58,665 bases of DNA from a virus (IMGVR_UViG_3300032242_001675:1-58665); one strand, 5' to 3'. Positions 5,373 to 57,719 are shown, numbered from the stretch's first letter. A program made the numbers and translations. Notes: generated by a model not told the origin, from the letters alone.

Positions 5373-5381
5373 GGATAAACC

Positions 5382-5693: not shown

Positions 5694-5695
5694 CC

Positions 5696-5824
5696 ATGAA
5701 ACATCTTTGGAACATTGGGGGTTTTGCGCTTATTTATATTGGCGGATATTCACTAGGCATCGTAGAGTACCTGCTTGTTACGGCTGGCGCATTTTGTTTA
5801 ATTGTTTATGGGGCATCAATATGA
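5696..5824 (+). CDS. 42-residue membrane protein
   Basis: Encodes 42 residues dominated by two hydrophobic stretches (about 5-20 and 24-40), so probably inserted in the inner membrane as a hairpin. The start is two bases after the previous stop and the stop overlaps the next ATG. Function unknown. Confidence 0.55.
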   Translation: MKHLWNIGGFALIYIGGYSLGIVEYLLVTAGAFCLIVYGASI

Positions 5825-6162
5825 CTGACCAAGAACTATTAGAGTATGCGGCTAAGGCGGCAGGTCTTGAAATCAATAAAAGCTTAACAGGAACATTGTT
5901 TGTACTTAAAGGTGTGTCGCAATGGTGTGATTGGAATCCACTAATCGACGACGGCGATGCGTTGAGGCTGGCGGTGAAGATGGGCATGGAGGTTTATATA
6001 GACACTCACCCAGAAGGTTGCGATTGTACTGAGGTTTGGAGTGTTACTTACGATCAGCCAAAGAAACATGAAAGGTGTGTTAGTCACGGCGATGACCCAT
6101 GCGCCGCAACCCGCCGAGCAATTGTTATGTGCGCCGCTAGTATTGGTAAGGAGATGATATGA
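5821..6162 (+). CDS. Phage protein with WNPLxDDGDALRLAV motif
   Basis: 113 residues. Opening MTDQELLEYAAKAAG and the core WNPLIDDGDALRLAV are hallmarks of a small protein family widespread in phages of Enterobacteria and Burkholderiales; its function is not known. The ATG at 5821 overlaps the previous stop; a longer frame upstream exists but would run through the membrane-protein gene. Confidence 0.78.
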   Translation: MTDQELLEYAAKAAGLEINKSLTGTLFVLKGVSQWCDWNPLIDDGDALRLAVKMGMEVYIDTHPEGCDCTEVWSVTYDQPKKHERCVSHGDDPCAATRRAIVMCAASIGKEMI

Positions 6163-6293
6163 CTGACGATGATGTTTTTGTTTGGGTGGCGGCGTTAATT
6201 TTATTTGTTAACAATTTCATACTTGGTTGGCTAGTAGTGGATATGTTTTATCTTACGAATAAAACAGGAGAATCAAATGACACCAACAAATAA
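6159..6293 (+). CDS. 44-residue single-pass membrane protein
   Basis: Encodes 44 residues with an acidic N-terminus (MTDDD) and one strongly hydrophobic segment (about 6-32). Starts in an ATGA overlap with the preceding gene. The third tiny membrane protein of the accessory train; role unknown. Confidence 0.55.
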   Translation: MTDDDVFVWVAALILFVNNFILGWLVVDMFYLTNKTGESNDTNK

Positions 6294-6459
6294 ACTGCGC
6301 TGGCTTAACAAGTTTGAAACCGTAGAGCCTTACGAGTGTAGCGGAGGCAAACGCCCAGTTAAAGTGCTTCAACAATGGTGGGTAGCCCCAACCCACGATA
6401 CTTATTATGTTGACGGCAACTACGGCGAATGGCGTGATGTGGAGGTTGAAAATGAGTAG
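6277..6459 (+). CDS. Small hypothetical protein
   Basis: 60 residues, with LQQWWVAPT and YGEWRDVEV. Aromatic-rich and acidic at the end. GGAG lies before the ATG, and the stop overlaps the next start. No family recognised. Confidence 0.6.
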   Translation: MTPTNKLRWLNKFETVEPYECSGGKRPVKVLQQWWVAPTHDTYYVDGNYGEWRDVEVENE

Positions 6460-6730
6460 AGAATTAGTACAAAGAATCACAGATTATTTATCTGGCGGTG
6501 GTCTTGTTAATCCTGAATTAGCAAATCATAAAGAAGTGCGTGACCTGTTGATTGATTGCCGTAGCGAACTAGGCAAGCCTGAGCCAGCACCTGAACCTGT
6601 CGTTTCATTTCAAGATAGTGAAGAAGGTTTGTGGATTACCCTTGAATTTTACGGAGCTTACTTTTGTGAAAATTTAAGCGAAAGAAAACCCGCTAGGTAT
6701 TTTATTGACGCTTATAGGAGAAGAAAATGA
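6452..6730 (+). CDS. Hypothetical protein
   Basis: 92 residues starting MSRELVQRITDYL. It contains GKPEPAPEP, a short Pro/Glu linker like those in the longer protein at 6941. The ATG at 6452 is preceded by GGAGG; the upstream in-frame ATG at 6407 has no binding site. Confidence 0.65.
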   Translation: MSRELVQRITDYLSGGGLVNPELANHKEVRDLLIDCRSELGKPEPAPEPVVSFQDSEEGLWITLEFYGAYFCENLSERKPARYFIDAYRRRK

Positions 6731-6948
6731 ATAATGAAGTAGCGATCAATCACGCTGGGGCAGTAGCCACTATCAGGTGGTCACGCGATGAATTTCATAT
6801 AACCAAAGAAAGTAAATTCAACGAAGAACTTGCTAGTACGCTCGAAATAATCCCCTATGGCGAGGCAGTTACCACTCTTGGCGAAGACCGACGCAAATGG
6901 ATGCACGATAAATTAGACGCATGGATAAATGGAGAACTTGATGAATAA
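6727..6948 (+). CDS. Small hypothetical protein
   Basis: 73 residues, mixed charge, starting in an ATGA overlap. Ends with a helical acidic tail (LDAWINGELDE). No family recognised. Confidence 0.62.
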   Translation: MNNEVAINHAGAVATIRWSRDEFHITKESKFNEELASTLEIIPYGEAVTTLGEDRRKWMHDKLDAWINGELDE

Positions 6949-7900
6949 AGAACTATTACAGCAGGCATTAGAATTGTTGGTTGCTTATCGAGACTACACA
7001 GGGGATTTTCGTATAGCGAACAAATGCGGATCGACAATCCAAGCACTTGAGGCAGAGTTAGCAAAGCCTGAATTGCCAAGGGTTTTCAGGGAAGTTCCGA
7101 TTGGCGATAATTATGTCCTGCGCTTTTACCCGTCGGATACAGGCTGGATGTGCGGGATTAGCAATGAGATGATGGATGCGATTGAAGAGTTATCCAAGCC
7201 TGAGCAAGAACCTGAACCTAAGTCTATTAAAGCAGAAGACCTTTTAGTTGAGTCCTATTATCCGCGCACAGGTACAAGTGATCGAGGGATAAAAATTACG
7301 CACACACCAACAGGCTTAATTGTTTATTGTGAGTCAGAGTACAGTCAGCACGCCAACAAAAAATTAGCTTTGCAAAAGTTAGAAGCAAAGTTAGCCAAGC
7401 CTGAGCAAGACTGGGATTTACTTGCAAAAACTCAAGAGTCCCTTCGTGAACATATGGCACGGATTAAAGAGTTGGAAGCACAGCTAGCCAAGCAAAAAGC
7501 ATTGGACAAGAAAGCCGACAACGCCCGTGATTTGGGGCTGGATTATGAGCCTGAGCAAACGCCTGTGGCGTGGGCAACATTTGATGGCGAAGGTAATTAC
7601 GATTATAGGAATTACGAGGATAACAAAAATTATCGTGACGAGTTTATTGAGCGCAACGGTACAAAGTATGCTAGTTGGGTAATGCCTCTTTACGCCGCAC
7701 CACAAAAGTATTGCCCGTCAGAAAACAATGCGACTTACGAAAAAGGTTTTGTTGACGGCATGGCAAAGCAAATGCACTCAAGCGTTGATCGTGCGGTGAA
7801 TGCGATGGATAAAAAATGCGATGTACATGAGTGCCGCAGGAAGGTACGAGAGGCAGACGATGACGCTAGCCTAGCAGGTGCAATTATTTACAGGAGATAG
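6941..7900 (+). CDS. Modular accessory protein with repeated KPE linkers
   Basis: 319 residues, the longest accessory gene. It opens with a LLQQALELL helix and contains several copies of an ALEAELAKPE-type element (about 31-46, 145-156, 170-184), each a short helix followed by a Lys-Pro-Glu linker. Near 200-255 lies a domain with TPVAWATFDG and ending PLYAAPQ, a closing motif common in mosaic phage proteins. The modular repeats suggest assembly by duplication of helix-linker units. Function unknown. ATG at 6941 was chosen for GGAG seven bases upstream. Confidence 0.75.
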   Translation: MNKELLQQALELLVAYRDYTGDFRIANKCGSTIQALEAELAKPELPRVFREVPIGDNYVLRFYPSDTGWMCGISNEMMDAIEELSKPEQEPEPKSIKAEDLLVESYYPRTGTSDRGIKITHTPTGLIVYCESEYSQHANKKLALQKLEAKLAKPEQDWDLLAKTQESLREHMARIKELEAQLAKQKALDKKADNARDLGLDYEPEQTPVAWATFDGEGNYDYRNYEDNKNYRDEFIERNGTKYASWVMPLYAAPQKYCPSENNATYEKGFVDGMAKQMHSSVDRAVNAMDKKCDVHECRRKVREADDDASLAGAIIYRR

Positions 7901-7902
7901 CA

Positions 7903-8127
7903 ATGCCGTTTAAACAACACCCAACTGACCCAACAAAGGTTATTTACAAAACAAACGAGTATTGTGTACCCAAGCCGTGGGTGGGTCTGACGGATAAAAA
8001 CATTGAAGAGGTTTATGAAATAACAAGCCAACAAACCCTACGCCCTCAAGATAGGCATATGGTACTCGCTTTTGCTCAGGCAGTTGAAGCTAAACTCAAG
8101 GATAAGAACGATGCAACATATACCTGA
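7903..8127 (+). CDS. Small phage protein with WVGLT motif
   Basis: 74 residues. PWVGLTDKNIEEVYEI followed by a helix ending FAQAVEAKLKDK is a layout common in small phage proteins. The following protein has a related EWVGLTPEEIESIV segment, so the two share a module. GGAG before the ATG. Confidence 0.68.
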   Translation: MPFKQHPTDPTKVIYKTNEYCVPKPWVGLTDKNIEEVYEITSQQTLRPQDRHMVLAFAQAVEAKLKDKNDATYT

Positions 8128-8350
8128 TTTGTACGCTGATGTTGATTTGCAAATGCTTAAAAAGAAAATTCAGGCGATTGAATCAGCAATTACTAATCCT
8201 AAGCGTGAATGGGTAGGTCTGACACCTGAGGAAATAGAATCAATAGTTGATGCAAACACAACGGATAGTGGAGGTTTTGATATATGGTGTGATGGTTTTG
8301 GTGTTGCCCGCGCAGTTATGGAAAAACTTAAGGAGATGAACAATGGATGA
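8111..8350 (+). CDS. Small phage protein with WVGLT motif (related to previous)
   Basis: 79 residues with EWVGLTPEEIESIV at about 36-50, matching the module in the preceding protein. The ATG at 8111 has AAGGA upstream and overlaps the preceding gene by 17 bases. Function unknown. Confidence 0.65.
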   Translation: MQHIPDLYADVDLQMLKKKIQAIESAITNPKREWVGLTPEEIESIVDANTTDSGGFDIWCDGFGVARAVMEKLKEMNNG

Positions 8351-8555
8351 GCAAGAATTGATTAGACGGTCGCAGGTTGCTTGGTATGACAATACGGGCA
8401 AATATATTTATGTACCCGTTTATTCTGCAAGTGGGGTTTTGATGCGGGAAATTGCTTTTCGCAAAGAAGACGGAGAATGGGTCGGCAAGTTAATCCACGC
8501 AGACATGGTTGAGTTGATTAAATACGCTGAAGCAAATAGGGTGAAGAAAGCATGA
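8343..8555 (+). CDS. Small hypothetical protein
   Basis: 70 residues, with a beta-rich middle (KYIYVPVYSASGVLM) and a helical end. AAGGAG lies six bases before the ATG. No family recognised. Confidence 0.63.
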   Translation: MDEQELIRRSQVAWYDNTGKYIYVPVYSASGVLMREIAFRKEDGEWVGKLIHADMVELIKYAEANRVKKA

Positions 8556-8827
8556 ACGATTTTCAAAAATCATTTTTAGCACGGGGCACGGGGTCAACAC
8601 TCTACACACAAAAAGAATTTGATGACCAACTAGCCATAGCCAAGGCCCAGATCATGCAGGTTGCGATCGAAACAACCAAGACGGCGATTGCAATTGAGCG
8701 GGGAGAATGTGCCAAGATAGCATCTAATATGGCGTCAGAATGGGCAGATAACCCAGAGGCGCCTATGAGTTTACCGATTGCGCTAGAAGCGTGCGCTGAT
8801 AAAATTCGCAATCGGTTAATAAAATGA
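8552..8827 (+). CDS. Hypothetical helical protein
   Basis: 91 residues, starting in an ATGA overlap. FDDQLAIAKAQIMQVAIE and the later CAKIASNMASEWADNP suggest a long helix followed by a conserved end seen in small phage proteins (GECAKIA type). Function unknown. Confidence 0.65.
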   Translation: MNDFQKSFLARGTGSTLYTQKEFDDQLAIAKAQIMQVAIETTKTAIAIERGECAKIASNMASEWADNPEAPMSLPIALEACADKIRNRLIK

Positions 8828-8910
8828 GCGATATTCCAGATTGGTTTTTTGTGGCATATATTGCGTGGTGTGGAATCTTATTGATAATAAAGGGGTGGTT
8901 ACATGAATGA
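8824..8910 (+). CDS. 28-residue membrane peptide
   Basis: Encodes 28 residues, nearly all one hydrophobic helix (WFFVAYIAWCGILLIIKGW). Both ends overlap neighbouring genes, and the start overlaps the previous stop as ATGA. Very short, so uncertain, but it resembles the other tiny membrane genes in this train. Confidence 0.42.
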   Translation: MSDIPDWFFVAYIAWCGILLIIKGWLHE

Positions 8911-9100
8911 AGAAGAAGAAGAAGCAGCGTGGGCAGAAATAGAACGTAAACAAAAAATTCAACAAATTAAATTAGGCGATGATTATTACGAAGCCGTTCT
9001 AGCCGCCCAATTATTTGTTGAAAATACAAGCGCCAATGAGTTGGCGATCATGACGCTCAGAAAAGCATTTGAGCTCGGTTTTAGGCAAGGACGTATGTAA
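8903..9100 (+). CDS. Small acidic hypothetical protein
   Basis: 65 residues with a run of five Glu near the start (NEEEEEAAWAEIE) and a helical remainder. AAGGGG precedes the ATG. No family recognised. Confidence 0.6.
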   Translation: MNEEEEEAAWAEIERKQKIQQIKLGDDYYEAVLAAQLFVENTSANELAIMTLRKAFELGFRQGRM

Positions 9101-9333
9101 TGTCAGGTTACTCACTATCGCTTGTTAGACGCATTACTAGTAAGCAATACAGACCCTTTACACAGCTCGCTTTAAAAGCCATTGAGCGAAACGTGAGCAT
9201 TGTTGAAATTGCTACGTATTTAGGCGTTTCACGCACAGCCGTCTACGCTTGGTTTTTGGGTAAGTACGAACCAAGCGAAGACAAGTTTAATAAACTGGAG
9301 AAATATCTTGGATCAATGCAAAAAAGAATTTGA
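9100..9333 (+). CDS. Helix-turn-helix DNA-binding protein
   Basis: 77 residues. SIVEIATYLGVSRTAVYAWF (33-52) is a clear XRE-like helix-turn-helix, with the usual Ala, Gly and hydrophobic positions, followed by GKYEPSEDKFNKLEKYL as in Cro/CI-type proteins. It has no cleavage or oligomerisation domain, so a small Cro-like regulator is likely. It lies at the distal end of the plus arm, next to the convergence point; its operator is not evident. Confidence 0.8.
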   Translation: MSGYSLSLVRRITSKQYRPFTQLALKAIERNVSIVEIATYLGVSRTAVYAWFLGKYEPSEDKFNKLEKYLGSMQKRI

Positions 9334-9442
9334 TGAATGGGTAGCGTTACTTAAAGAACTTAAGCGTGAAGAATTATTGCTAGATCCTTACACCATTTGG
9401 TTAGAAGCGTGGCACGTTGCTAATATGGTTAAAAAAAACTAA
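9308..9442 (+). CDS. 44-residue hypothetical protein with TTG start
   Basis: A TTG at 9308 preceded by GGAG at seven bases opens a frame for 44 residues (MDQCKKEFDEWVALL first). It overlaps the regulator gene and its stop overlaps the stop of the converging ejection-protein gene by four bases. It is the last gene of the plus arm. The good binding site and tight packing support it, but the rare start lowers confidence. Confidence 0.5.
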   Translation: MDQCKKEFDEWVALLKELKREELLLDPYTIWLEAWHVANMVKKN

Positions 9443-10761
9443 TAGGATTGAGAGCCAATAGCTAATTGTTGGTTAAATTCTTTTTGTTTTTCAGGTGGTA
9501 AAGACATGTAGTAATCGTACATGTCTTTGCCGATGCCCCCTGCAGTAAGGGCGGCGCCAGCACCAAAAGTAATTGGATTAGGAACCATCATCAAAGCCCC
9601 ACCCAATCCGCTTGCATAGTTGCTTACCGCACCAGAGGTATCACCCGCTTGTTGCGCTTGATAACCCTTGTAAATATCGTGACCAGCAAGCGCTCCGCCC
9701 AACGGGCCAAGGAATGGTCGGGCTTTAGAAAGTAATTTTGCAATCGGCGACTCTAATGCTGACTCTACACCTGCCGCCGAATGACCGCCCAAACTTTTAA
9801 AATTTTTCTCTGACTCAAGCGCCGCACGTTCCAACGGAACAACTTGAGATTCTTTACTATTCATGTGCTCAAGTAATTTTGCTTCAGCTGATTTTTTGGC
9901 AGTAGCCGCGCTACTAGCGGCGGTTTTTTGTTCCTGATAAAGATCTTTGAGCATTGCCAATTTTTGTTCTTGGGGAATGCTAGATTCAATAATCTTTTTA
10001 TAAGCAAGATCAAATTCTGTTTGCATAGGCGCCGGAGCTAATACGCCCATAGGACTTGATGCGGTAATGCCGGGAAACTCCAAAGTAATACCGCCGGGTT
10101 TAACCAGCCCTTGCGTTTGTAATGCTTGCAATCCAGATTTACCTGCGGCACCATGCTCGGCAATCTCTTGTGTTCGTGCTTGATAACCCGTTTGATTTGC
10201 TCGTCCTGTATTTGGATTAGGCGCCTCGCTACCTTGACCTTGTATCTGACGAGTGTGCTCATCGGGCAAAATAATTTTTTGCGTGACTTCATTTAATGGC
10301 GTTTTAGCTTTTATTTTTTCTTCAATATAAGCGTTACGAGCTTTTTCAAGCTCATTCTTTTCCATCAAATGTAACTGAGCGAGGTCGTCCGATTGACGTT
10401 TCAAGGCGTCAAATTTTAATTCATAATCCTGCAACCCACCTTGATGTGCGGCTTGATTTTTTAACCACTCATCTCGAGCAATTTGAGCAGGATTTGGTTT
10501 AACTTCAGGCGCAACGTAGTCAGGAAAAGATTTAGCAACTGATCTACCAACGCCCGCACCAATGCCAGTAGCTAATATTTTTTCTGCCGTATTAGGTGAG
10601 TTATACAGATCTTTAACAATTGAGCCAGTAGGCTTTTGTTCCTTGTTATCGACAGACTGGTATGGTTGCTCAAGCGTGGGCAATTCAAACTTGCCTGTAT
10701 CTTTATTGACAAACTCAGGCAGTATGCTTGACAACTCGGATTGAACTTCTTGCTCAGCCAT
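9439..10761 (-). CDS. Putative internal/ejection protein (last gene of the minus arm)
   Basis: 440 residues. The middle is long and helical with charged heptads (about 95-300). The C-terminal region (about 335-425) contains Gly/Ala-rich membrane-like stretches (LGGALAGHDIYKGY, FGAGAALTAGGIGKDM). Helical proteins with glycine-zipper-like ends placed after the tail genes are typical of podovirus proteins ejected into the cell with the DNA. Low GC like the adjoining accessory genes. The assignment rests on position and composition, not on a recognised family. Confidence 0.65.
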   Translation of the reverse strand: MAEQEVQSELSSILPEFVNKDTGKFELPTLEQPYQSVDNKEQKPTGSIVKDLYNSPNTAEKILATGIGAGVGRSVAKSFPDYVAPEVKPNPAQIARDEWLKNQAAHQGGLQDYELKFDALKRQSDDLAQLHLMEKNELEKARNAYIEEKIKAKTPLNEVTQKIILPDEHTRQIQGQGSEAPNPNTGRANQTGYQARTQEIAEHGAAGKSGLQALQTQGLVKPGGITLEFPGITASSPMGVLAPAPMQTEFDLAYKKIIESSIPQEQKLAMLKDLYQEQKTAASSAATAKKSAEAKLLEHMNSKESQVVPLERAALESEKNFKSLGGHSAAGVESALESPIAKLLSKARPFLGPLGGALAGHDIYKGYQAQQAGDTSGAVSNYASGLGGALMMVPNPITFGAGAALTAGGIGKDMYDYYMSLPPEKQKEFNQQLAIGSQSY

Positions 10762-10763
10762 GG

Positions 10764-12416
10764 TTATTCCTTAGTTGCGTAAGGCGAGTGTTTAACTAAA
10801 TCCGCATACGTGGTATGGAATCGTTTAACAACGTCTTTATATTCGGGCGATGAAAAGAAAGAAGAAGTTGCTGCATTAGGATTTTTTTCAAAATATTGTG
10901 CTTGTTTTTCAGCCATTTCGCCCATGTACTTGTTAGTAACTATATTTTTACTACCCAAATACATGATAAAAGAAGCCGGATCTGTTTCTTTAAACCCCGG
11001 TTTAGCCATTTGTTGCGCATCAAACGTGGAAATCTGAGGGCCATATATAGACTTGCCCGCTTTCATTACGTCTTGATTTAAAGTGTAAATTAACTGAGCA
11101 ATATTTCTAGCAACGGCTTGTTTTTCAGGCAACAAATTTAACTTGTTAATAGCTTCACTAACTGGAACCGAAGCGCTTCCCCATGGCGTATTGACGCCGC
11201 TTTCCGCCAACTGAAGTAATGCGGTCATCGGCCCTTGATGAACCAATTGACCCACCACGTCTTTATTGTTTTTAACCAGATCAATAAGTTCTCGTGTTTT
11301 AACGTCATTCATCGCAACTGTATTTTGGTCATACCCAGCAAGCGTATTATGTTTTTCAACATAAGGGGTCATACGTTTTTCTCGCTCTGCTTTTAATGCT
11401 TCAATATCCGCCTCGCCTTGTTTTTTCAATAGATCTTGTTTCGTTGCCAAACTTGATTGCGTATTGTTTGAAGCTAAAACACCTGCGCCGTTTTCTTGTT
11501 TAAAAATTCCCGTAGCAATTGCGTTCCTTACTAGCGGGTTGCTCATGTCTAATGGCTGGTCAGGCTTCACCCCCATTGTTTGAGCAACCTGCGCAATGTA
11601 CGCAGGCGTTGGGTTATTATCTGAGGCAGGTGCCCACTTGCTAATAACGCCAGCGATTGTGTTAATTCCTTGATCGCCATAGGCTTTTAACAAATTGTCG
11701 GTAGCTTTTATACCCTCGTCTAATGAACTGAAAGCAACCAATTTGCCATCTTTCATAATAGCGCCGGGGTTATTGTTTCTTAACGGCGCAGGAATATTGC
11801 TACTTTGATTGGCGGGTATAACGCCTTGATCTTTTAAAACAGCTTCAAAACCGTTTCCGTATTTAGCCAATTCTTTTGACACGTCAATACCTTGGCTTCT
11901 TAATGTCAACAAGTTTTTAATTGTTTCATTTTGCATACCTGCCGCGTTTTTAATTCCTTCAGCTAATTTTGGATCATAACGAGAAATGGCGATCATCAAT
12001 TCAGGCGTAAATTTATTAACAACGCCAGCTGGTATATTGCCTGACGCAATGGCTTGAGATGCAGTATTTGGGTCAGTGCCCATAATATTTGCAACCATGT
12101 CTATTGCTTTATTTTGTTTAGCAACTTCAAACTTCTGCCCCGCTAGCTGAGCACGCATCTGCGCAATAGCGGGGGCGCGGGTTTCTTGTTCTTCCTGCTG
12201 TTTACCGACGACGGAGGCGGCGTTGCCGAGCGCCTCGCCAAAGCTCCCCGTGCGCCCCGGCGCGAGGAACGCTCCCGCCACGTTCAGCATATTGGGCTCG
12301 TTACGACGCTCAAGCGACTGGAGCGCTTGGTTTAACGCGTCAAAGTATTCTTTCTGGTACTCGGGGTCGGTCGACGCGCCGGGTGCGATGTTAGGTAATG
12401 CGCCAGCTGTTGCCAT
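10764..12416 (-). CDS. Internal virion protein with muramidase-like domain
   Basis: 550 residues. Residues about 208-310 match the domain seen in virion-associated peptidoglycan hydrolases: PLRNNNPGAI, then a FSSLDEGIKA helix, a YGDQGINTI turn, YIAQVAQTMGV and a closing helix with KQENG. It probably opens the cell wall during DNA entry. The first ~80 residues are encoded by GC-rich DNA like the genes before it, while the remainder is AT-rich, so the gene looks chimeric with a junction near 12.15 kb. The conserved N-terminus may dock the protein into the virion. Confidence 0.75.
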   Translation of the reverse strand: MATAGALPNIAPGASTDPEYQKEYFDALNQALQSLERRNEPNMLNVAGAFLAPGRTGSFGEALGNAASVVGKQQEEQETRAPAIAQMRAQLAGQKFEVAKQNKAIDMVANIMGTDPNTASQAIASGNIPAGVVNKFTPELMIAISRYDPKLAEGIKNAAGMQNETIKNLLTLRSQGIDVSKELAKYGNGFEAVLKDQGVIPANQSSNIPAPLRNNNPGAIMKDGKLVAFSSLDEGIKATDNLLKAYGDQGINTIAGVISKWAPASDNNPTPAYIAQVAQTMGVKPDQPLDMSNPLVRNAIATGIFKQENGAGVLASNNTQSSLATKQDLLKKQGEADIEALKAEREKRMTPYVEKHNTLAGYDQNTVAMNDVKTRELIDLVKNNKDVVGQLVHQGPMTALLQLAESGVNTPWGSASVPVSEAINKLNLLPEKQAVARNIAQLIYTLNQDVMKAGKSIYGPQISTFDAQQMAKPGFKETDPASFIMYLGSKNIVTNKYMGEMAEKQAQYFEKNPNAATSSFFSSPEYKDVVKRFHTTYADLVKHSPYATKE

Positions 12417-38361: not shown

Positions 38362-38910
38362 CTATGCTGAAACCTTTACGGCTTCGGGTTGAAAAACACT
38401 GTCAATGAGTTTGTTAAGATATTTCATTTCTTGCACACCGCGTCGCGCCTCAGACCAAGGTCCCCGAGGACCGCGCAAAGCTAGTTTATTCTTTTCGGAT
38501 AAAGGTTTTCCTTTTTTGGACAAGCTAACAGATTCGTTCCACTCTGGCGAATGAATCACGTTTTTCTGTCTTTTTGATTTTGCTAAACGCTCGCTTTCAG
38601 AATGCGTCCAGCCGCCCTTACGGTGCTCTTCCGATCGTTTTATTTTGGCGACTTCATACAGACGAGAGTTTGATATCTGGCATTGCTTTGCCATCAATAC
38701 CACAGCGTACCACTGCCTACCCCCGTGCATTCTAGCTAAACAGTTATGCGCAATAAAATGCTCGCGGGCTGTTAGCTCAACGAGATTGGAGGCGTGGTCG
38801 GTGCCCCCCATTGACTTCGGCACTATGTGGTGACGCTCTTTATAACCGGCAACAGTTTTGCGCAGTAACGCTTTAACGATTAACTGCTCATAAACTTTGT
38901 GATAATTCAT
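38362..38910 (-). CDS. HNH homing endonuclease (paralogue of 51752 gene)
   Basis: 182 residues. The HNH motif has HHIVP (27-31), N42 and H51/H55. The first 60 residues align without gaps to the protein at 51752, with 32 identities by my count (MNYxxxYExLIxKA opening). After the HNH core lies a basic helical DNA-binding part with SKKGKPLSEKNK, like NUMOD elements. It sits between unrelated structural genes, as free-standing homing endonucleases do. Function in the phage cycle is not needed. Confidence 0.85.
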   Translation of the reverse strand: MNYHKVYEQLIVKALLRKTVAGYKERHHIVPKSMGGTDHASNLVELTAREHFIAHNCLARMHGGRQWYAVVLMAKQCQISNSRLYEVAKIKRSEEHRKGGWTHSESERLAKSKRQKNVIHSPEWNESVSLSKKGKPLSEKNKLALRGPRGPWSEARRGVQEMKYLNKLIDSVFQPEAVKVSA

Positions 38911-49610: not shown

Positions 49611-49789
49611 AAGTCGTCGTTGCAACTCAAGAGGCTATCAGGATTGCGGAGCATGACTGCTCGGCTGCCGCAGACCCTTGGTTCGAGGCCTACCAATGGC
49701 TGGATGAGTATTGCCCTAAAAATCGCCTCGCAGTTGTTGACAAGCACATCGGCACAGACCTCCTTTACGTATGGGTGAAGAAAGTATGA
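49607..49789 (+). CDS. Small hypothetical protein
   Basis: 60 residues, beginning MKVVVATQEAIRIAEH, mixed charge, ending YVWVKKV. ATGA overlap at both ends ties it to the base-modification operon. No family recognised. Confidence 0.6.
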   Translation: MKVVVATQEAIRIAEHDCSAAADPWFEAYQWLDEYCPKNRLAVVDKHIGTDLLYVWVKKV

Positions 49790-50748
49790 GTCGCTCTATT
49801 TTTGAGACTCTGTCCGTCGACCGCACGGTGATCAGGTGGGAGGACCACCTGCGCACCCTCACCCCGGTGGAGAACCACCGTGGCGTCTGGTTCAAGCGCG
49901 AGGACTACTTTGCTCCGCTCGGCTACGGCGGACCGAACGGCTCTAAGATGCGCCAGCTGATCTGGGTGATGAGCAGCCGCCGCGCGGGCAAGACCCACGT
50001 GCTCTCGGGCGCTTCCGTGAGGTCGCCCCAGCTGAGCATGTCTGCAATTGTCGGCGCGCACTACGGCCTGCAGACTCGGCTCGTGGTGGGGGCTACAAAG
50101 CCCGCCACTCTTAAGCGCCACCCGAACCCCTACGTTGCGCTCGGGTTCGGCGCGCACTTTGAGTACATTAACGTCGCTTATAACCCGGCGCTCCAGCGGG
50201 AGGTCGCGCGCCTGACCCAGCCCGAGTCCTTGGTGGTGGAGTACGGCATTACGCTCGACCACAAGAAACACGACAGCGCGCAGGTCTACGGGTTCCACGA
50301 CGTCGGCGCACACCAGGTCACTAACATACCCCCCGAGGTGCGCACGTTGGTGGTGCCCGCGGGGTCTTGTAATTCCCTGGGTAGTGTGCTGCTCGGCCTG
50401 AGCCGGGACTCCAAGAACGTGTCCACGCTGTTCACGCTCGGAATCGGTCCGAGCAAGCAGTCCTGGCTACGCGACCGGATGAACAGCATCGGCGTGGACG
50501 TTGACCGGCTGCCGTTTGCCTGGAAACATTTCTCGCTCCACGACACCGGCTACTCGACTTACCAGGACATGGTCAAGGAGTCCTTTGACGGCATAGAGTT
50601 CCACCCGACCTACGAGGCCAAGTGCATAAGATGGCTTAAGGAGAAAGGCTGGGTGAATGAGGACGACACGAGTATGTTTTGGATCGTAGGCAGCGAGCCT
50701 AAAATACCGCTGATTAAGCCCTATTTCACCCACCAGGTGGAGTCATGA
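49786..50748 (+). CDS. PLP-dependent enzyme, ACC-deaminase/cysteine-desulfhydrase-like (fold type II)
   Basis: 320 residues. FKRED (36-40) followed by GGPNGSKMRQL (48-58) matches the KRED...GGNKxRKL signature of this family, making K54 the likely Schiff-base lysine. GASVRSPQLSMSAIVGAHYG (75-94) corresponds to the substrate-binding loop region, and VPAGSCNSLGSVLLGL (190-205) to the Gly/Ser-rich loop that holds the PLP phosphate. The enzyme would act on an amino acid, by decarboxylation, elimination or rearrangement. Immediate neighbours encode amino-acid:DNA-transferase-like and 5-hmdU kinase-like proteins, so its probable substrate is an amino acid linked to thymine in DNA. A free-amino-acid desulfhydrase is an alternative. 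Confidence 0.8.
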   Translation: MSRSIFETLSVDRTVIRWEDHLRTLTPVENHRGVWFKREDYFAPLGYGGPNGSKMRQLIWVMSSRRAGKTHVLSGASVRSPQLSMSAIVGAHYGLQTRLVVGATKPATLKRHPNPYVALGFGAHFEYINVAYNPALQREVARLTQPESLVVEYGITLDHKKHDSAQVYGFHDVGAHQVTNIPPEVRTLVVPAGSCNSLGSVLLGLSRDSKNVSTLFTLGIGPSKQSWLRDRMNSIGVDVDRLPFAWKHFSLHDTGYSTYQDMVKESFDGIEFHPTYEAKCIRWLKEKGWVNEDDTSMFWIVGSEPKIPLIKPYFTHQVES

Positions 50749-51755
50749 TGAGCCGACCCGACTACCGACTGCCCGAGCAGCGCCTCGGTTATTTCACGCA
50801 GCTGTATTATGCAACTTTAAAATACAAAGTATCTCCCGGACTGGTATACTTATTTATGCCTGAATTAGCCTCTCGTTACAACTGGTCTGTAGACCAAAAA
50901 CTTTGGTTTTCATTTATAAACGGGATGACTCAAAACCCTATAACTTCTATGCGCATAATGGAAGCCTCTCCATTTATTCCCCAGTCAAAAGAAGAGTTCA
51001 AGCGTTTGGACGAATGGTTTAACCGCGAATGGGACAAATTAAGTTTTGATACAGATAGAAGAAAGCAAAAACGCGATACTTTAAAAGCGATTTGGTCTTA
51101 TTCTGAATTAGTAAAAGAACACGGCTCTCAAGAAACTACCTGGAAACAAAAAACACCTTATTCAGTTTTATGGGAAAGAGCTAATGGTAAAATATACAGC
51201 TTTGGCAGGCTGAGCGCGTTCAGTTATTTAGAATATGTTAAGATAATGGGGTATGGAAACGACTGTTCTAGCCTTATGTTTGAAGAAAAAGAAGGAAGTC
51301 GTTCTCATCGAAATGGAGCTTTACTTTTACTAGGTCACGATGAAATTGTTTGGGACAAACGTATTGGCAACGGTTTTAATGGGCGGTATGAAAACTTTGA
51401 AAAAATATGCGAATATTTAACTAAAGCCGCTGATGATTTTTTAAAAGACTTTAACGCCAGGTACCCCGAGATTAAAGGAGATTACTACACTTTAGAAAGC
51501 TGTTTGTGTACGTTTAAAAACTCTTTTTTCTCTCGTAGGTATTTTGGAGTTTACGCCGATATGTCTTGGGACAGAATAAAATGGTATGATGATAAGGGTA
51601 TGTCCAAATATACAGAAATATTTAAAGACATTCGTTCTCAAAATTTACCGGAATGGTTAAGAGAAGAGTGCGAAAATAAACCAGTTTCTCGCTCTATAAA
51701 AGCTAGCAAATTTGCACTAACCGGTATTCCGTATCGAAGCGAGTTTTTTCTATGA
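50745..51755 (+). CDS. Putative amino acid:DNA transferase (AADT / aGPT-PPlase family)
   Basis: 336 residues. LWFSFINGMTQNP and the late segment TLESCLCTFKNSFF with RRYFGVYADMSWDRI resemble, from memory, the family that transfers amino acids onto pyrophosphorylated hydroxymethyl-deoxyuridine in DNA, including the CxxK/RRYxxVYxDM pattern. This would make the amino-acid thymine link that the PLP enzyme later edits. The first ~23 codons are GC-rich, but from about 50812 onward the gene is sharply AT-rich, unlike the genes on both sides, apart from the HNH gene. The recognition should be tested by profile search. Confidence 0.62.
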   Translation: MMSRPDYRLPEQRLGYFTQLYYATLKYKVSPGLVYLFMPELASRYNWSVDQKLWFSFINGMTQNPITSMRIMEASPFIPQSKEEFKRLDEWFNREWDKLSFDTDRRKQKRDTLKAIWSYSELVKEHGSQETTWKQKTPYSVLWERANGKIYSFGRLSAFSYLEYVKIMGYGNDCSSLMFEEKEGSRSHRNGALLLLGHDEIVWDKRIGNGFNGRYENFEKICEYLTKAADDFLKDFNARYPEIKGDYYTLESCLCTFKNSFFSRRYFGVYADMSWDRIKWYDDKGMSKYTEIFKDIRSQNLPEWLREECENKPVSRSIKASKFALTGIPYRSEFFL

Positions 51756-52399
51756 ACTATCAACGTATATATGAAAGTTTAATTTTTAAAGCGCAAGAAA
51801 GACCTCCCCTCACCGGCTACACGGAAAAACATCATATAGTTCCACGATGTTTAGGGGGAAAAGAAGAGCATTCTAATTTGGTCATTCTGAGCGCTGAAGA
51901 ACATTTTTTAGCTCATCAGTTACTCGTTAAAATTTATCCGAAACATGACGGACTAGCTTATGCTGCCAAACTTATGACTATGTCAAAAGGTAAAGGTAGA
52001 GTGGGTAATAAATTATACGGATGGTTAAAAAAGCGCGCTTCAATCGCACAGTCTAATCAGTCTTCTAAGCAGAATAAATTAAATAACCCGTCTAATAAAC
52101 CTGAAGTTAAAGCGATGCGCAGAGAACAGCTTTTAAAAAACAACCCTATGAAAATAGATAGTATTAAGCAGAAAGCTACTTCTAAATCAATCGCAAAAAC
52201 TAAAGAAAGAATGAAAAACCCAAGTCTTAGAAACGCATGGGTTGAAATCGTAACAAAAGCTAAAGTAGAGCAAAACTCTTACGCAAAACAGGGTAAATCT
52301 TTGAGTGATAGATGGAAAGAGCCTGATTTTAAGCGTAAGATGGTAGCTTCGATTAAAGCGGGTAAAGAAAAAAGCAAATTTAAAGAGGTTTTAATATGA
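51752..52399 (+). CDS. HNH homing endonuclease inserted in the modification operon
   Basis: 215 residues, low GC and lysine-rich. The HNH motif has HHIVP (27-31), N42 and H51/H55; after about residue 95 there are repeated DNA-binding elements (KAMRREQLLKNNPMK, KTKERMKNPS, LSDRWKEPDFKRK) of the NUMOD type. The first 60 residues match the HNH protein at 38362. It lies immediately after the AT-rich part of the transferase gene and keeps the ATGA overlaps, so it may have arrived with that segment. Confidence 0.85.
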   Translation: MNYQRIYESLIFKAQERPPLTGYTEKHHIVPRCLGGKEEHSNLVILSAEEHFLAHQLLVKIYPKHDGLAYAAKLMTMSKGKGRVGNKLYGWLKKRASIAQSNQSSKQNKLNNPSNKPEVKAMRREQLLKNNPMKIDSIKQKATSKSIAKTKERMKNPSLRNAWVEIVTKAKVEQNSYAKQGKSLSDRWKEPDFKRKMVASIKAGKEKSKFKEVLI

Positions 52400-52974
52400 A
52401 CCGTATTATCAACATTCGCGGGACTAGCGGATCGGGTAAGTCTACCATCGCCCGCACGTTCCTGGAGCATTTACCGCACGAGCCCCTACCGGACTCCACG
52501 GGTAAAGTGAAAGGCTACCGCGTGGACGCCACCGCGGCGGGCTTAACGCAGCCGCTGTTTATTGTCGGGCGGTATGACATCGCCTGCGGCGGGGGCGACA
52601 CCCTACGCAGCGAGGAAGAAGCCGCGCAGCTTTGTGACTTCGCGCAGCAGCAAGGCCACGTGCTCCTGGAGCGCATGCTCACCAGCGGGAGCGGACCGAA
52701 AGGGCAGTTCGCCTCCACGTTCCTCGGCACGGGTAAAATCACTTACGCCATAATGGACACCCCGCTGGAGGTGTGCCTGGAGCGGGTGATGGGGCGGCGG
52801 GCTGAGCGCGGCGACGACCGCCCGTTTAACCCCGAGAACACCGTGGGCAAGTACCACGGCTCGCACCGCGCGGCGGAAAAACTGAAAACCGCTGGCGAGG
52901 ACGTCCGCCTGATTGACCACACCGACGCGTTTAAACAGGTGTTGGCTATTTACCTGGAGGCCGAGCAGCTATGA
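52396..52974 (+). CDS. P-loop kinase, probable 5-hmdU DNA kinase
   Basis: 192 residues. Walker A RGTSGSGKST (8-17), a lid-like region with ERVMGRRAERGDDRP and a basic tail are typical of small P-loop kinases. In thymidine hypermodification operons the kinase phosphorylates 5-hydroxymethyl-deoxyuridine in DNA (Iyer et al.; Lee et al.). Its direct coupling to the next gene, which resembles the helical domain associated with this kinase, supports the role over ordinary nucleotide kinase activity. Confidence 0.75.
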   Translation: MNRIINIRGTSGSGKSTIARTFLEHLPHEPLPDSTGKVKGYRVDATAAGLTQPLFIVGRYDIACGGGDTLRSEEEAAQLCDFAQQQGHVLLERMLTSGSGPKGQFASTFLGTGKITYAIMDTPLEVCLERVMGRRAERGDDRPFNPENTVGKYHGSHRAAEKLKTAGEDVRLIDHTDAFKQVLAIYLEAEQL

Positions 52975-53858
52975 GCAGCGTACAGACCGTGACCGTAGAC
53001 ATTGACCTGTTTTTAAACTTCGTGACCGAGCGCGAGTCGCTTCGGCTGCGGAAGGAGAGCGGCGAGCCCGCCCCCTGGACCGAGGACGCCACGCTCGCGC
53101 GGTATCGGTTTTGCAACATACGCCGCAAAGACGACCGCGTGACGCGGTGGCTACTGCGCGAGTACTATGCCAAGCTCCCGCCCGACGCGGATTACTGGTT
53201 CGCCGCGGCAATCGCGCGCCACCTGAACTGGCCGCCGGTGCTTAAGGTGCTGCTGCAAGATAAGATGATTCCCGCGCGGGCGGAGAAGTTCTGGCCAGGG
53301 GCGTTTGCCGCCCGGCTGGAGCAGCTGAAAAAGGAGATGGGCAAGGTGTACACCTCGGCCTATGTCGTTTACCCCGGTCACGACAAAGGTAAGACTAAGT
53401 CCCACAACATGGCGCATTTGATATTTGCCCCGCTCGCCGAGAGCGCTAAGCAGGTGCGCGCGGCGCTGCGCCAAGGGCGGCTCGAGCCCACGGTGAACGA
53501 GCTGGTTAAGTCCTACGGCATTAGTAACTTTATGGCGGGGCAGATCGCCGCGGATTTAAGCTACCTGCCGGGGCAGCTGAAAGACGCCTCCGACCTCTAC
53601 ACCTACGCGTCGCGGGGTCCGGGCTCGCAGCAAGGCCTGAACCGCCTGCGGGCGCTGCCGCTGACGCACCAAGACTCCGCGGAGGAGTTCTGCGGCCACC
53701 TGCGGCAGGTGCTCGAGACCATCACCGAGTGGACTCCGTTTAAAGACCTAACGCTGTACGATGTGCAAAACTGCTTTTGTGAGTTCGACAAATACTGCCG
53801 GGCGGTGCTGCTGGAAGGCCGCCCGCGCCAAGACTACCACCCCACCACGGAGTTTTAA
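52971..53858 (+). CDS. HMUDK helical domain / aGPT-PPlase-like protein
   Basis: 295 residues, all helical with basic patches. FVTERESLRLRKESGEPAPW and YRFCNIRRKDDRVTRW (45-60) match, from memory, the helical-domain family named after 5-hmdU DNA kinases and related thymine pyrophosphorylases, itself derived from HhH glycosylases. It probably binds and flips the modified thymine for the adjacent kinase. It could instead be a second transferase. ATGA overlap with the kinase gene. Confidence 0.72.
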   Translation: MSSVQTVTVDIDLFLNFVTERESLRLRKESGEPAPWTEDATLARYRFCNIRRKDDRVTRWLLREYYAKLPPDADYWFAAAIARHLNWPPVLKVLLQDKMIPARAEKFWPGAFAARLEQLKKEMGKVYTSAYVVYPGHDKGKTKSHNMAHLIFAPLAESAKQVRAALRQGRLEPTVNELVKSYGISNFMAGQIAADLSYLPGQLKDASDLYTYASRGPGSQQGLNRLRALPLTHQDSAEEFCGHLRQVLETITEWTPFKDLTLYDVQNCFCEFDKYCRAVLLEGRPRQDYHPTTEF

Positions 53859-53866
53859 GAGAAACT

Positions 53867-54865
53867 ATGGAAATCATCGCACGTAATGTTAATGAGCTGT
53901 TCGCCGATATGCTCTGGCGGTTTAAAACGGAGTCCGTACTTACCCAGACCCGCAACGGACCCGCCCTGCGTATTCCCCGTCCGGTGCTCACCACGCTCTC
54001 AGCGCCCGAGGAGCGGGTGTTGTTTCACGCGGCGCGCGACGCTAACCCTATCTTCCACCTGATGGAGTCGATTTGGATGCTCGCGGGGCGGCGCGATGTC
54101 GAGTTCCTCGCGCTTTTTAACAGCCGCATCGCGCAGTACTCGGACGACGGTCGGGTGTTTAACGCGGCGTATGGCCACCGCATGCGCACCCACTTCCGCG
54201 TAGACCAGCTGATTGAGGCGATTACGCTCCTGCGGCGCGACCCCGAAACCCGGCGGTGCGTGGTGCAGCTGTGGGAGGCCGCCGACCTGACCAATCAGAA
54301 CTCCAAAGACCTCGCCTGCAACACGCAGATAGTCTTCGGGCGCGGGGTGCACGGCACGCTCGACGCACTAGTGACCAACCGCAGCAACGACGCGTGGTAC
54401 GGCTACGCCGGGGCTAACGCCGTGCACTTCACCGTCATTCAGGAGCTCGTGGCGCGGGCGCTCGGTTGGCCAATGGGTACGTACTCCACCGTCACCGCTA
54501 ATCTGCACCTTTACACCGAGCTCTATAACGCCCAGCACCACGTTGAGAACCCGCCCGTCAACGCCGACACTTTCGATTATTACTTCTTAAAGAACCTGAC
54601 GGCTTACCCGTTGATGGTTAACGCGAACTACCGCGGGTTCCTGGAGGACTGCGAGGCGTTCTGCCGCGACCCGTTTAACCAGACCGCGCGCTACCAGCAT
54701 CACTTCTTCCCCGCGGTGGCGCTCCCCATGGCTATGGTGAGCCACGTGCGCCGCACTAAACAGTCCGACGGCTATTACTGGGCGAGCCAGGTCGAGGCTC
54801 AGGATTGGAAAATAGCGACGCAGGAGTGGATTGCGCGGCGCGAGAAAAACTCAGCTATAATTTAA
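53867..54865 (+). CDS. Thymidylate-synthase homologue, predicted dUMP hydroxymethylase
   Basis: 332 residues. The catalytic cysteine is C151 in SKDLACNTQIVF. R172/S173 in NRSND bind nucleotide phosphate, D175 lies close, and N184 in GANAVHF matches the residue that favours dUMP (dCMP enzymes have Asp there). H214/Y216 in ANLHLY bind the deoxyribose. W70 in ESIWMLAG matches the conserved Trp. The operon context indicates a dUMP hydroxymethylase making 5-hydroxymethyl-dUMP, the building block for modified DNA. Ordinary thymidylate synthase is the main alternative. Confidence 0.85.
   Translation: MEIIARNVNELFADMLWRFKTESVLTQTRNGPALRIPRPVLTTLSAPEERVLFHAARDANPIFHLMESIWMLAGRRDVEFLALFNSRIAQYSDDGRVFNAAYGHRMRTHFRVDQLIEAITLLRRDPETRRCVVQLWEAADLTNQNSKDLACNTQIVFGRGVHGTLDALVTNRSNDAWYGYAGANAVHFTVIQELVARALGWPMGTYSTVTANLHLYTELYNAQHHVENPPVNADTFDYYFLKNLTAYPLMVNANYRGFLEDCEAFCRDPFNQTARYQHHFFPAVALPMAMVSHVRRTKQSDGYYWASQVEAQDWKIATQEWIARREKNSAII
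54831..54861 (+). promoter_or_regulatory. Possible internal promoter before the HD gene
   Basis: A perfect -10 TATAAT (54856-54861) lies at the end of the thymidylate-synthase-like gene, with TTGCGC 19 bases upstream, a long spacer. A TAACT-rich leader (54882-54904) follows, resembling the leaders of other promoters in this genome. Evidence is moderate because the -35 is poor. Confidence 0.4.
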
Positions 54866-54916
54866 ACGCGGTCTCTTTTTTATAACTTTTCTAACCTCAT
54901 AACTGGACTACTTCTC

Positions 54917-55405
54917 ATGAAAGACACTCTGGAGTTTACACAGGCGGGCGCGGACGTGAAGCGCTACCACACCCTGCTCACCCTGCAAAGCGAAACCGTG
55001 GGGCACCACTCCCACGGCGTGGCGATGCTCTGCCTACTGCTCGACCCCCAAGCGAGCCGCCCGTTGTTAATTGCGGCGCTCACCCACGACCTGGCCGAAC
55101 ACGTCACCGGCGACATCCCCTCCCCCGCTAAGCGCGAGTACGGCATCGGCGACCAAGTGAACGAGCTCGAGCAGCGGCTCCTCAACTCCGTCGGGCTCGG
55201 CGTGCCGATGCTCTACCACCACGAGGCGCGCATCCTTAAGCTCGCCGACATACTCCAGGGTATGCTGTTCTGCGCTCGTGAGCTGTCGCTGGGCAACCGG
55301 CGCATGCGCGCGGTGTTTAACAACTACGTGAGCTATGCCGAGGCGATGAAGCCGGTCGACCGGGAACGGGTTATTTTTGAAATCATCAAGGAGCAGGCAA
55401 AATGA
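54917..55405 (+). CDS. HD-domain nucleotide phosphohydrolase (YfbR-like)
   Basis: 162 residues. R16, H33, H57-D58 (THDLAEHVTGD), E61 and D111 in LKLADILQG give the full metal- and substrate-binding set of HD 5'-nucleotidases such as YfbR. In hypermodified-thymine phages a hydrolase of this kind removes canonical thymidine nucleotides so the modified nucleotide enters DNA. It could equally trim the dUMP or dATP pools. Its neighbours, the dUMP hydroxymethylase and the DNA polymerase, favour the first role. Confidence 0.82.
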   Translation: MKDTLEFTQAGADVKRYHTLLTLQSETVGHHSHGVAMLCLLLDPQASRPLLIAALTHDLAEHVTGDIPSPAKREYGIGDQVNELEQRLLNSVGLGVPMLYHHEARILKLADILQGMLFCARELSLGNRRMRAVFNNYVSYAEAMKPVDRERVIFEIIKEQAK

Positions 55406-55854
55406 GCGCGAATGATAAACAGGTCGCAGGCACGCACTACCACACCACCACGGGCGCACTTCAGCACTGGGACTACTGCGACGCGAACGACGTGCCGTAC
55501 CTCGAGTCTGCCTGCACCAAGTACGTGCTGCGTTGGCGTAAAAAGAACGGCATTCAGGACCTACTCAAGGCGCAGCATTACCTCGAGAAAAGACTTGAGA
55601 ACCTAGCCGCGGGGGTGGGCGCTCCGCGCGGGGGCACGCTGAACCATACCGATTACCTGCGGTTCGCGCTCGCGCACAATCTAGACTCGCCCCAGCTCGC
55701 GCTGGAGTACGAGATAATCAGCTACGTGCTGCACTGGGGCAACGCGGGGGACTTGGAGTCCGCGCAGTTGGCGCTGGAGGAGCTCTTGTTGCTGGCGCAG
55801 GCGGAAGACGACCTCTCCGCCGATGCCGATTCGTCTTACGTAGACCAGGACTGA
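55402..55854 (+). CDS. DUF3310 (SaV-like) nucleotide-related protein
   Basis: 150 residues. QVAGTHYHTTTGALQHWDYC and YLESACTKYVLRWRKKNGIQD match DUF3310, small phage proteins next to nucleotide metabolism genes that may be kinase-like or regulatory. An extra acidic C-terminal region (about 75-150) ends in DQD. Function not established. Confidence 0.82.
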   Translation: MSANDKQVAGTHYHTTTGALQHWDYCDANDVPYLESACTKYVLRWRKKNGIQDLLKAQHYLEKRLENLAAGVGAPRGGTLNHTDYLRFALAHNLDSPQLALEYEIISYVLHWGNAGDLESAQLALEELLLLAQAEDDLSADADSSYVDQD

Positions 55855-55868
55855 GAGCCCCGCCCCGT

Positions 55869-57719
55869 ATGAGCCACACTATAGTCCTAGACACCGAAGT
55901 AGCGCCGAACGGATTTCTCTTGTTAGGGAAAATCTTAGAACTCGGCACCTACTTTCATATCTGGCTGAGCGAGCCCGCAGCCCGGGAGCGTATTGCGGAG
56001 CTCATGGCTTCGGACAATACGCTCGTCACGTTCAATGGTAATCGTTACGACCTGCCGATGATTTCCGCCGTGATAAAAGGCTTCACGGGCGAGGGGCTTA
56101 AAGCCGTGTCGGATGCCATAATCGGGGGCAACCTTTCGGCCTGGGCAGCGCGTAAGCGGTTCGGCCTGCCGCAGGTCAAAGCCGACCACATCGACCTGGT
56201 CGAGGTCGCGCCGTCTTTTGTGGGGCTGAAGACCTACGGCGCGCGTATGAACATGCCTTGGCTTCAGGATTTGCCTTATCGCCACGATGAGCCCTGGACC
56301 GAGGCACGCCTGCCGCATGTCTTAGAGTACTGTCGTAATGACGTGGACACCACCGCGGAGCTGCTTAACCGGCTCGCGGAGCCCGTTATGCTCCGGTTGG
56401 CGATGTCTAAAGAGTACGGCGTGGACATGCGCAGCAAGTCGGACACCCAGATGGCGGAGACCGCTTTTATTAAGCGTTTGCGCCTACCGGACCACGACAT
56501 CCCCGTACCCCGCGCGCTGCGTTATAAAGTGCCGAGCTTTATTCACTTTGAACTCCCGCACCTTAAAAAGCTGGCGCGGGACATGGAGGATCACATCTAT
56601 GAAGTCAACCTTAAAACGGGACACGTCATACTACCTGAGTTCCTTGGGGGAACTACCGTCGCCGTGGGCGCGGGCGTTTACCAGATGGGCGTGGGCGGAA
56701 TACACTCTACACATGATAAGTCGGTCTGCCACGTCGCGGATGAGAATACGATCATTGCGGACATTGACGCAGCGAGTTTTTACCCGAGCATTCTCATCAA
56801 CGGCAACCTCGTGCCCGAGCGGCTCGGCAGCGCGTTTATCGAGGAGTACCGCAGCGTGTACGAGCGCCGCCTCCAGGCCAAACGCGCGGGCGACCGCGTC
56901 ACCGCTGAGACGTTAAAGATCTCGCTGAACGGCACTTTCGGCAAACTCGGCAGCCGGTGGTCGGCGCTGTACGCGCCGGAGATGATGCTCGCGATTACGC
57001 TCACCGGCCAGCTGACCCTGCTCAGCCTGATTGAGCGGCTGGAGGGGGTCGGCGCGCGGACGCTCTCCGCTAACACCGATGGCATCGCTATGGCTTACAC
57101 CCCGCAGGACGTGCACCGCGTGGAGAGCGTGGTTGCGGCGTTCTCGCGGGCGACGGGGTTCGCGTTTGAGTATACGCCTTACCGCGCGTTGGCAATTAAA
57201 GACGTCAATAATTACTTCGCGGTTAAGCTCGACCGCTCCGTTAAGGCGAAAGGCATCTACGCCCCGCCCGACCTGCGTAAGAACCCGACCGCGCCGATCT
57301 GCGCTCGCGCGGTATCGTTGTGGCTCGCGCGCGGAACCCCTTTACTTCAGACCATAAAGTCGGGTAAAATAGAGGAATACTTAAGCGCACGCAACGTCAC
57401 GGGTGGCGGCGTTCAGGGGCAGCTTTACCTCGGGAAAGTGGTGCGCTGGTATAACTCAACCGATAACTCCTTACCTCCGCTAACTTACGCATCTAACGGC
57501 AACCGCGTACCGAAGACCTCCGGCGTGCGCGCGCTGATGAGGATGGGGACCGACACGTACCACCCCGTCGACCTCGACTACGACTGGTACTACAAGGAGG
57601 CCATAAGAATTGCGGTAGACACGGGGTGTCGGGAGTTTTTAACGGAAGAGCAGATAGCCTTAATCGCACCCCCGCCTAAAGTTAAAAAAGTACGCAAAAC
57701 CAAGGAAAAAGCAACATGA
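55869..57719 (+). CDS. Family B DNA polymerase
   Basis: 616 residues. The 3'-5' exonuclease has D8/E10 (VLDTEVAP), N56/D61 (FNGNRYDLP) and Y154/D158 (YCRND), all intact, so it should proofread. Polymerase motifs: D300-AASFYPS (A), K350-ISLNGTFGKLG (B) and N402-T-D404-G (C). The first Asp of the usual DTDS is Asn here, while the main catalytic Asp (D404) is kept. No long TPR insertion, so it is not a protein-primed polymerase. It presumably copies hypermodified DNA with the AEP primase from the other arm. Confidence 0.92.
   Translation: MSHTIVLDTEVAPNGFLLLGKILELGTYFHIWLSEPAARERIAELMASDNTLVTFNGNRYDLPMISAVIKGFTGEGLKAVSDAIIGGNLSAWAARKRFGLPQVKADHIDLVEVAPSFVGLKTYGARMNMPWLQDLPYRHDEPWTEARLPHVLEYCRNDVDTTAELLNRLAEPVMLRLAMSKEYGVDMRSKSDTQMAETAFIKRLRLPDHDIPVPRALRYKVPSFIHFELPHLKKLARDMEDHIYEVNLKTGHVILPEFLGGTTVAVGAGVYQMGVGGIHSTHDKSVCHVADENTIIADIDAASFYPSILINGNLVPERLGSAFIEEYRSVYERRLQAKRAGDRVTAETLKISLNGTFGKLGSRWSALYAPEMMLAITLTGQLTLLSLIERLEGVGARTLSANTDGIAMAYTPQDVHRVESVVAAFSRATGFAFEYTPYRALAIKDVNNYFAVKLDRSVKAKGIYAPPDLRKNPTAPICARAVSLWLARGTPLLQTIKSGKIEEYLSARNVTGGGVQGQLYLGKVVRWYNSTDNSLPPLTYASNGNRVPKTSGVRALMRMGTDTYHPVDLDYDWYYKEAIRIAVDTGCREFLTEEQIALIAPPPKVKKVRKTKEKAT

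Follow-up and report, generated by a model that had tools for sequence, protein, structure and literature searches.

By the reactions assigned to their enzymes, two phages whose thymine hypermodification has been studied chemically, Salmonella phage ViI (Vi01; Ackermannviridae) and the YuA-like Pseudomonas phage M6 (Mesyanzhinovviridae), build their bases in different ways. In ViI, serine is joined to the base through its side chain; in M6, glycine is first joined through its nitrogen, hence the radical SAM step of that phage. The ViI pathway reportedly needs neither a radical SAM enzyme nor an acetyltransferase. The M6 genes follow the order gp51 (transferase), gp52 (PLP enzyme), gp53 (radical SAM), gp54 (kinase), gp55 (helical protein), gp56 (Nmad5), gp58 (thymidylate synthase homologue, TS), gp59 (HD) and polymerase, and the M6-like phage SN1 carries the same gene set (PMC9476957). 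The ViI genes are scattered over a 157-kb genome, with TS at 37.2 kb, the kinase at 38.2 kb, the helical protein at 87.4 kb, the PLP enzyme at 140.5 kb and the amino acid:DNA transferase (ADDT) at 151.1 kb. The ViI base, 5-(2-aminoethoxy)methyl-dU (5-NeOmdU) (PMC6449724, PMC11721090), accounts for about 40% of its thymidines (PMC11721090). Both phages were compared gene by gene with the locus described here.

Gene content and order of the cassette

The window analyzed is the whole 58,665-nt record IMGVR_UViG_3300032242_001675, and the cassette under study spans positions 49786-55405 (Table 1). The genes lie where the first-pass annotation had put them, in the same order and on the same strand: PLP-ADDT-HNH-KIN-HEL-TS-HD, followed by DUF3310 and PolB. 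All reading frames of the cassette are open and its key motifs are intact. ATGA overlaps occur at PLP/ADDT, ADDT/HNH, HNH/KIN, KIN/HEL and HD/DUF3310, and also upstream of PLP. The earlier statement that nearly all the genes are linked in this way fits four internal junctions but slightly overstates the case, as HEL/TS and TS/HD are separated by 8 and 51 nt, respectively. Promoter and terminator scans gave nothing beyond shuffled controls. The order PLP-ADDT-KIN-HEL-TS-HD-DUF3310-PolB was found again in dozens of diverged contigs, at approximately 36-68% protein identity, and because it recurs so often it is not a product of chance.

Table 1. Features of the cassette and its surroundings, with positions in the window.
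Feature	Position	Strand	Evidence
PLP, fold type II PLP enzyme (ACC deaminase / D-cysteine desulfhydrase kind)	49786..50748	+	phrog_3650, E 9e-91
ADDT, amino acid:DNA transferase, ViI branch	50745..51755	+	PF18724, E 4e-16
HNH homing endonuclease gene, between ADDT and KIN	51752..52399	+	phrog_655, E 1e-49
KIN, P-loop kinase, predicted 5-hmdU DNA kinase	52396..52974	+	BLAST E 4e-15 to M6 gp54
HEL, 5-hmdU DNA kinase helical protein	52971..53858	+	PF18723, E 3e-40
TS, thymidylate synthase homologue, predicted dUMP hydroxymethylase	53867..54865	+	PF00303, E 5e-17
HD, YfbR-like nucleotidase	54917..55405	+	PF12917, E 3e-12
DUF3310 protein, kept beside HD	55402..55854	+	PF11753, E 5e-6; homologue M6 gp61
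PolB-type DNA polymerase, conserved 3' of cassette	55869..57719	+	phrog_1252, E 2e-155
Low-GC block, ADDT body and HNH	50789..52416	.	two-state GC segmentation, 35.9% GC

Profile searches, which the first-pass annotation had named as a check on four of the proteins, bore out the families of the transferase (50745), which exceeded the PF18724 cut-off (59.7 bits against 26.2), and of the helical protein (52971), which matched PF18723 and has homologues in M6 gp55 and Vi01_130. For the other two proteins the Pfam profiles were weak and different comparisons were strong. The kinase (52396) scored 21.2 bits against HMUDK_HMUD1 (PF18748), under the 27-bit cut-off, and only barely passed that of AAA_33, but it is homologous to M6 gp54 and to Vi01_061 (E 1.5e-9), both clear members of PF18748, and its P-loop, GTSGSGKS, is intact. 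Likewise, the PLP protein (49786) matched Pfam PALP at E=1e-3, under the cut-off, but phrog_3650 strongly. PHROGs (phrog_800) and the M6 and Vi01 entries misleadingly name this kinase family 'terminase small subunit' (window 52396-52974; M6 gp54, L002:41685-42245; Vi01_061c, L084:38203-38865), whereas the M6 and Vi01 proteins fall in Pfam's 5-hmdU DNA kinase family PF18748.

The PLP protein is approximately 35% identical to ViI Vi01_182 over its length, and the best PDB folds for its AF2 model (pLDDT 92.6) are D-cysteine desulfhydrase (E 2e-11) and ACC deaminase. The NGSK lysine and the PAGSCNS (GSCNS) loop are invariant in 32 PLP sequences, including those of Ackermannviridae. A fold II enzyme of the ViI family with its invariant residues kept agrees with the PLP editing step that had been placed in the pathway beforehand.

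No convincing PDB match was found for the ADDT sequence. A Foldseek search with its AF2 model (pLDDT 94.1) returned 8z2m/8z2n as the best folds (probability 1.00, TM 0.53/0.60, E 0.02, 12-13% sequence identity), with a DNA glycosylase ranked next. The 8z2m structure is the 5-PmdU glycinyltransferase gp46/PUGT of the Pseudomonas phage PaMx, a glycine-specific enzyme of the M6-type family. This fold match supports, without proving, the prediction that ADDT transfers an amino acid to phosphorylated 5-hmdU residues of DNA. The earlier expectation of an amino-acid-derived side chain on thymine is supported. A sequence search of the PDB with HEL gave no match, and a DNA-glycosylase-like fold for this protein is an idea that we mention in passing. 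Homologues of the HNH protein carry a homing-endonuclease annotation.

Relation to the ViI and M6 pathways and the proposed chemistry

Each of the five ViI modification proteins (TS, kinase, helical protein, ADDT and PLP) has a homologue in the window, at identities of 25-35%, and the transferase and PLP enzymes belong to the same branch. In contrast to the scattered genes of ViI, those of the window form one operon on an unrelated phage backbone. M6 and the window have a kinase-helical-(x)-TS-HD-DUF3310-polymerase order in common, with identities of 42% for TS (gp58), 30% for the helical protein, 28% for the kinase and 37% for HD (gp59), although the M6 polymerase is unlike PolB of the window. 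M6 differs in using a glycine-type ADDT, a different PLP enzyme, a radical SAM enzyme and Nmad5: gp51, gp52, gp53 and gp56 have no significant homologue in the window, and the radical SAM profile PF04055 had no match in its record, with M6 serving as positive control. As all four components are lacking, we rejected an M6-type (5-NedU) pathway.

Since both M6 gp51 and ViI Vi01_199 fall in PF18724, a finer profile test was performed. A profile was built from the window's ADDT family with ViI left out; Vi01_199 reached 157 bits against it and M6 gp51 -0.4 bits, and the window ADDT scored -0.8 against an M6-type profile built from two sequences. The motifs GRLSxxxxLE and GSxSxRNG are common to the window ADDT and ViI and missing from M6. 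These scores and motifs place the window ADDT in the ViI branch, not with the M6 glycine type. Glutamicibacter phage Montesquieu and Mycobacterium phage Prince have transferases among the closest from isolates (33-37% identity). Montesquieu also carries the PLP family (31% identity) but in a different gene order, and Prince-like phages have a TET/JBP-type oxygenase and a different kinase, with no PLP gene seen beside the transferase.

Thymine hypermodification by this cassette is well supported. As judged from the protein families, the hallmarks of a 5-hmdU pathway are present: a predicted hydroxymethylase, a predicted 5-hmdU DNA kinase pair and a putative amino acid:DNA transferase. We infer the following pathway, from its individual reactions to the amino acid, the PLP chemistry and the final base. 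TS would convert dUMP to 5-hydroxymethyl-dUMP, HD would lower the thymidine nucleotide pool, and the polymerase would then insert 5-hmdU into DNA. KIN and HEL would phosphorylate some of the 5-hmdU residues in DNA, after which ADDT would let the side-chain oxygen of serine displace the phosphate. Finally, PLP, as a predicted decarboxylase of the base-linked amino acid, would strip the carboxylate and leave 5-NeOmdU at part of the thymine positions, where the modified base presumably guards against host nucleases.

The choice of serine follows from chemical reasoning. Catalysis by a PLP enzyme requires a Schiff base to a free alpha-amine; with no radical SAM rearrangement in the pathway, that amine would be free only if the amino acid were attached by its side chain, as with serine in ViI, and the base to be expected would be that of ViI. 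We therefore consider ViI-type thymidine hypermodification encoded in one operon, with 5-NeOmdU as its likeliest product, to be the probable reading of this locus. The first-pass annotation had drawn the opposite lesson from the lack of a radical SAM enzyme and an acetyltransferase, namely that the base may differ from known ones. That argument is not supported: ViI reportedly does without both, and because the window has the ViI set, their absence points towards the known ViI base. The base is thus most likely a known one, and the claim of a new base is not supported.

A probable transferase replacement and its bearing on the final base

Two-state GC segmentation delimited a low-GC block covering the ADDT body and HNH, with flanks of 59.6 and 59.8% GC (Table 1). 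GC3 is 34% in ADDT and 29% in HNH, against 78-83% in PLP, KIN, HEL, TS, HD and DUF3310. The left edge of the block lies approximately 15 codons into ADDT, directly 3' of the conserved DYRLPExR motif, and the right edge lies in the first codons of KIN, directly 5' of the P-loop. Low GC is not unique to the block, as the window contains further such stretches (e.g., 3491-12134). In the closest relative, L120, the genes from KIN through PAM3 are 58-85% identical to those of the window, with identity increasing downstream, but its ADDT is only 53% identical, no closer than the ADDTs of distant phages, and third-position identity of that gene is 31%, versus 41-49%. PLP and HNH were not seen in the cassette stretch of L120. 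Moreover, HNH is absent from the ADDT/KIN junction in related contigs, and relatives of the HNH gene occur elsewhere at two other cassette junctions, HEL/TS and PLP/ADDT.

These data suggest that the ADDT body and HNH were probably replaced recently by those of a low-GC relative, a foreign origin that goes beyond the first-pass annotation. On the simplest reading, the donor would be an unsampled low-GC relative and the crossovers would have fallen in conserved codons; L012, with 60% ADDT identity and 42% GC, indicates a candidate direction. A second HNH homing endonuclease gene lies at 38362-38910 on the minus strand (phrog_655, E 5e-45; 46% GC). In the low-GC left arm of the window, 6929-7900 (+) encodes a 323-aa protein, residues 100-157 of which are release-factor-like (phrog_20323, E 7e-10).

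The block bears on the final base, since an ADDT that looks recently exchanged may be poorly matched to this PLP enzyme. ADDT and PLP are also distant from their ViI counterparts (approximately 28% and 35% identity), so that specificity could differ. Furthermore, most structurally solved fold II PLP relatives are deaminases, eliminases or racemases rather than decarboxylases. All of this would suit the same pathway working with another amino acid (threonine, cysteine, lysine or other) or another PLP reaction, giving an undescribed thymine derivative. We nevertheless regard that outcome as unlikely, given the complete ViI gene set, the transferase motifs and family profile common with ViI, and the invariant PLP residues common to the Ackermannviridae enzymes. 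Doubtful in a greater degree is a specific version in which HNH drives ADDT exchange among related phages, each new ADDT specificity altering the fifth base, such that this phage carries an undescribed thymine derivative.

The exchange could also have left the pathway incomplete or mismatched, in which case the DNA would carry nothing beyond 5-hmdU, phosphomethyl-dU or an amino-acid conjugate left uncut. Related contigs that lack the PLP gene show that some lineages can do without the PLP step. However, the open frames, the intact motifs and the fit of the incoming gene into the operon through ATGA overlaps make this outcome quite improbable.

A cassette acting on cytosine is suggested by one observation, that the best PDB match of TS is the CMP hydroxymethylase MilA (E 1.6e-22), ahead of the best true thymidylate synthase (7.8e-9). 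Residue 177 (E. coli TS numbering) decides between uracil and cytosine (PMC8670742). At this base-selecting position MilA has Asp, whereas the window TS has Asn; the motif pattern also read Asn in 101 of 110 relatives and left the remaining 9 unread. Thus, the Asp expected for dCMP-based cytosine modification (T4, MilA-like) is lacking in the window TS, which, by sequence only, is a predicted dUMP hydroxymethylase, MilA-like with a uracil-type Asn. As the kinase and transferase families also belong to 5-hmdU phages, the earlier proposal of thymine (the uracil ring) as the substrate stands, and we rejected cytosine as exceedingly improbable. Equally remote is the reading of these genes as nucleotide-metabolism genes or decayed remnants in a phage with unmodified DNA, against which stand diverged relatives that keep the gene order with their frames intact, and the fact that several of the families are known only from DNA hypermodification.

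Relatives of the cassette and its modular make-up

Two IMG/VR scans and one scan with a transferase alignment yielded at least 99 distinct ADDT proteins. Among the matches listed (99 ADDTs), 80 occur with TS and 11 with a TET/JBP-like oxygenase; the remaining 8 have neither of these nearby. At none of these loci did TS and TET/JBP occur together. PLP accompanies 56 of the 80 TS-linked ADDTs among these matches and is missing from 7; the other 17 lie on contigs that end too near the gene for PLP to be scored. No radical SAM or Nmad5 homologue was detected by BLAST among the relatives listed. The linkage is also seen in known phages, with PLP in 346 records and ADDT in 374, and with mycobacteriophages carrying ADDT but lacking the PLP family of the window. 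The cassette is common in environmental phages, a point that the first-pass annotation missed, and the known ViI base would be predicted for a large group of them.

In a quick ADDT tree, in which many inner branches are weakly supported, the PLP label changes at least eight times and PLP absence is scattered among carriers; in the same tree, the TET/JBP carriers L050 and L142/L143 fall inside TS groups. Close cassette relatives lacking the PLP gene are the contigs of L096, L118, L135 and L146, as well as L120, L124 and L144. Four of these contigs without the window's PLP family are long (L096, 60.8 kb; L118, 54.8 kb; L135, 57.5 kb; L146, 43.3 kb), but they are uncultivated and possibly incomplete records, and the L096 contig carries, close to its opposite end, an unrelated PALP (fold II PLP) enzyme. 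Relatives lacking PLP may stop at the amino-acid conjugate.

At L050, L070, L074-L076, L138, L142, L143, L160, L161 and L163, the transferase is kept, mostly with PLP, but the place of TS, KIN and HEL is taken by a TET/JBP-like oxygenase and another P-loop kinase. This arrangement suggests that the oxygenases hydroxylate thymine in DNA. The TET/JBP locus L155 was scored as lacking PLP, but its contig does carry a PLP gene outside the locus.

The probable ADDT swap, the repeated absence of PLP and the substitution of TET/JBP for TS reveal which steps evolve independently of one another, and the modularity of the cassette makes the diversification of the phage fifth base a testable question. Lee et al. 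(2021/22) reportedly drew attention to viral metagenomes in which such genes come in varied combinations; the block swap and the modular make-up described here exceed expectation. The compact operon also offers a place to rebuild a ViI-type pathway.

The phage itself is distant from isolates. Megablast of the cassette region found no close isolate, the terminase is 46-47% identical to those of Caulobacter phages and 54% identical to that of one uncultured record, and the identity of PolB is approximately 40%. A prophage-based host scan of genomes returned three MAG contigs only, with distant ADDTs, two of the three being actinobacterial.

Two further genes were noted among the relatives. One TET/JBP cassette has two transferase types: immediately 5' of its PLP and ViI-branch ADDT genes, at L050:1787-2509, is another ADDT, which is M6-like (glycine-type). 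In several relatives, PLP or ADDT is adjoined by a protein of approximately 245-250 aa that starts with KxxILNxxxFxLxPGE...YYxYxNKRxxETGKNV (L044:1670-2413, L050:3461-4219, L118:8172-8909 and L146:7040-7777). The L044 copy had no Pfam match, and the protein could be the product of a further modification gene.
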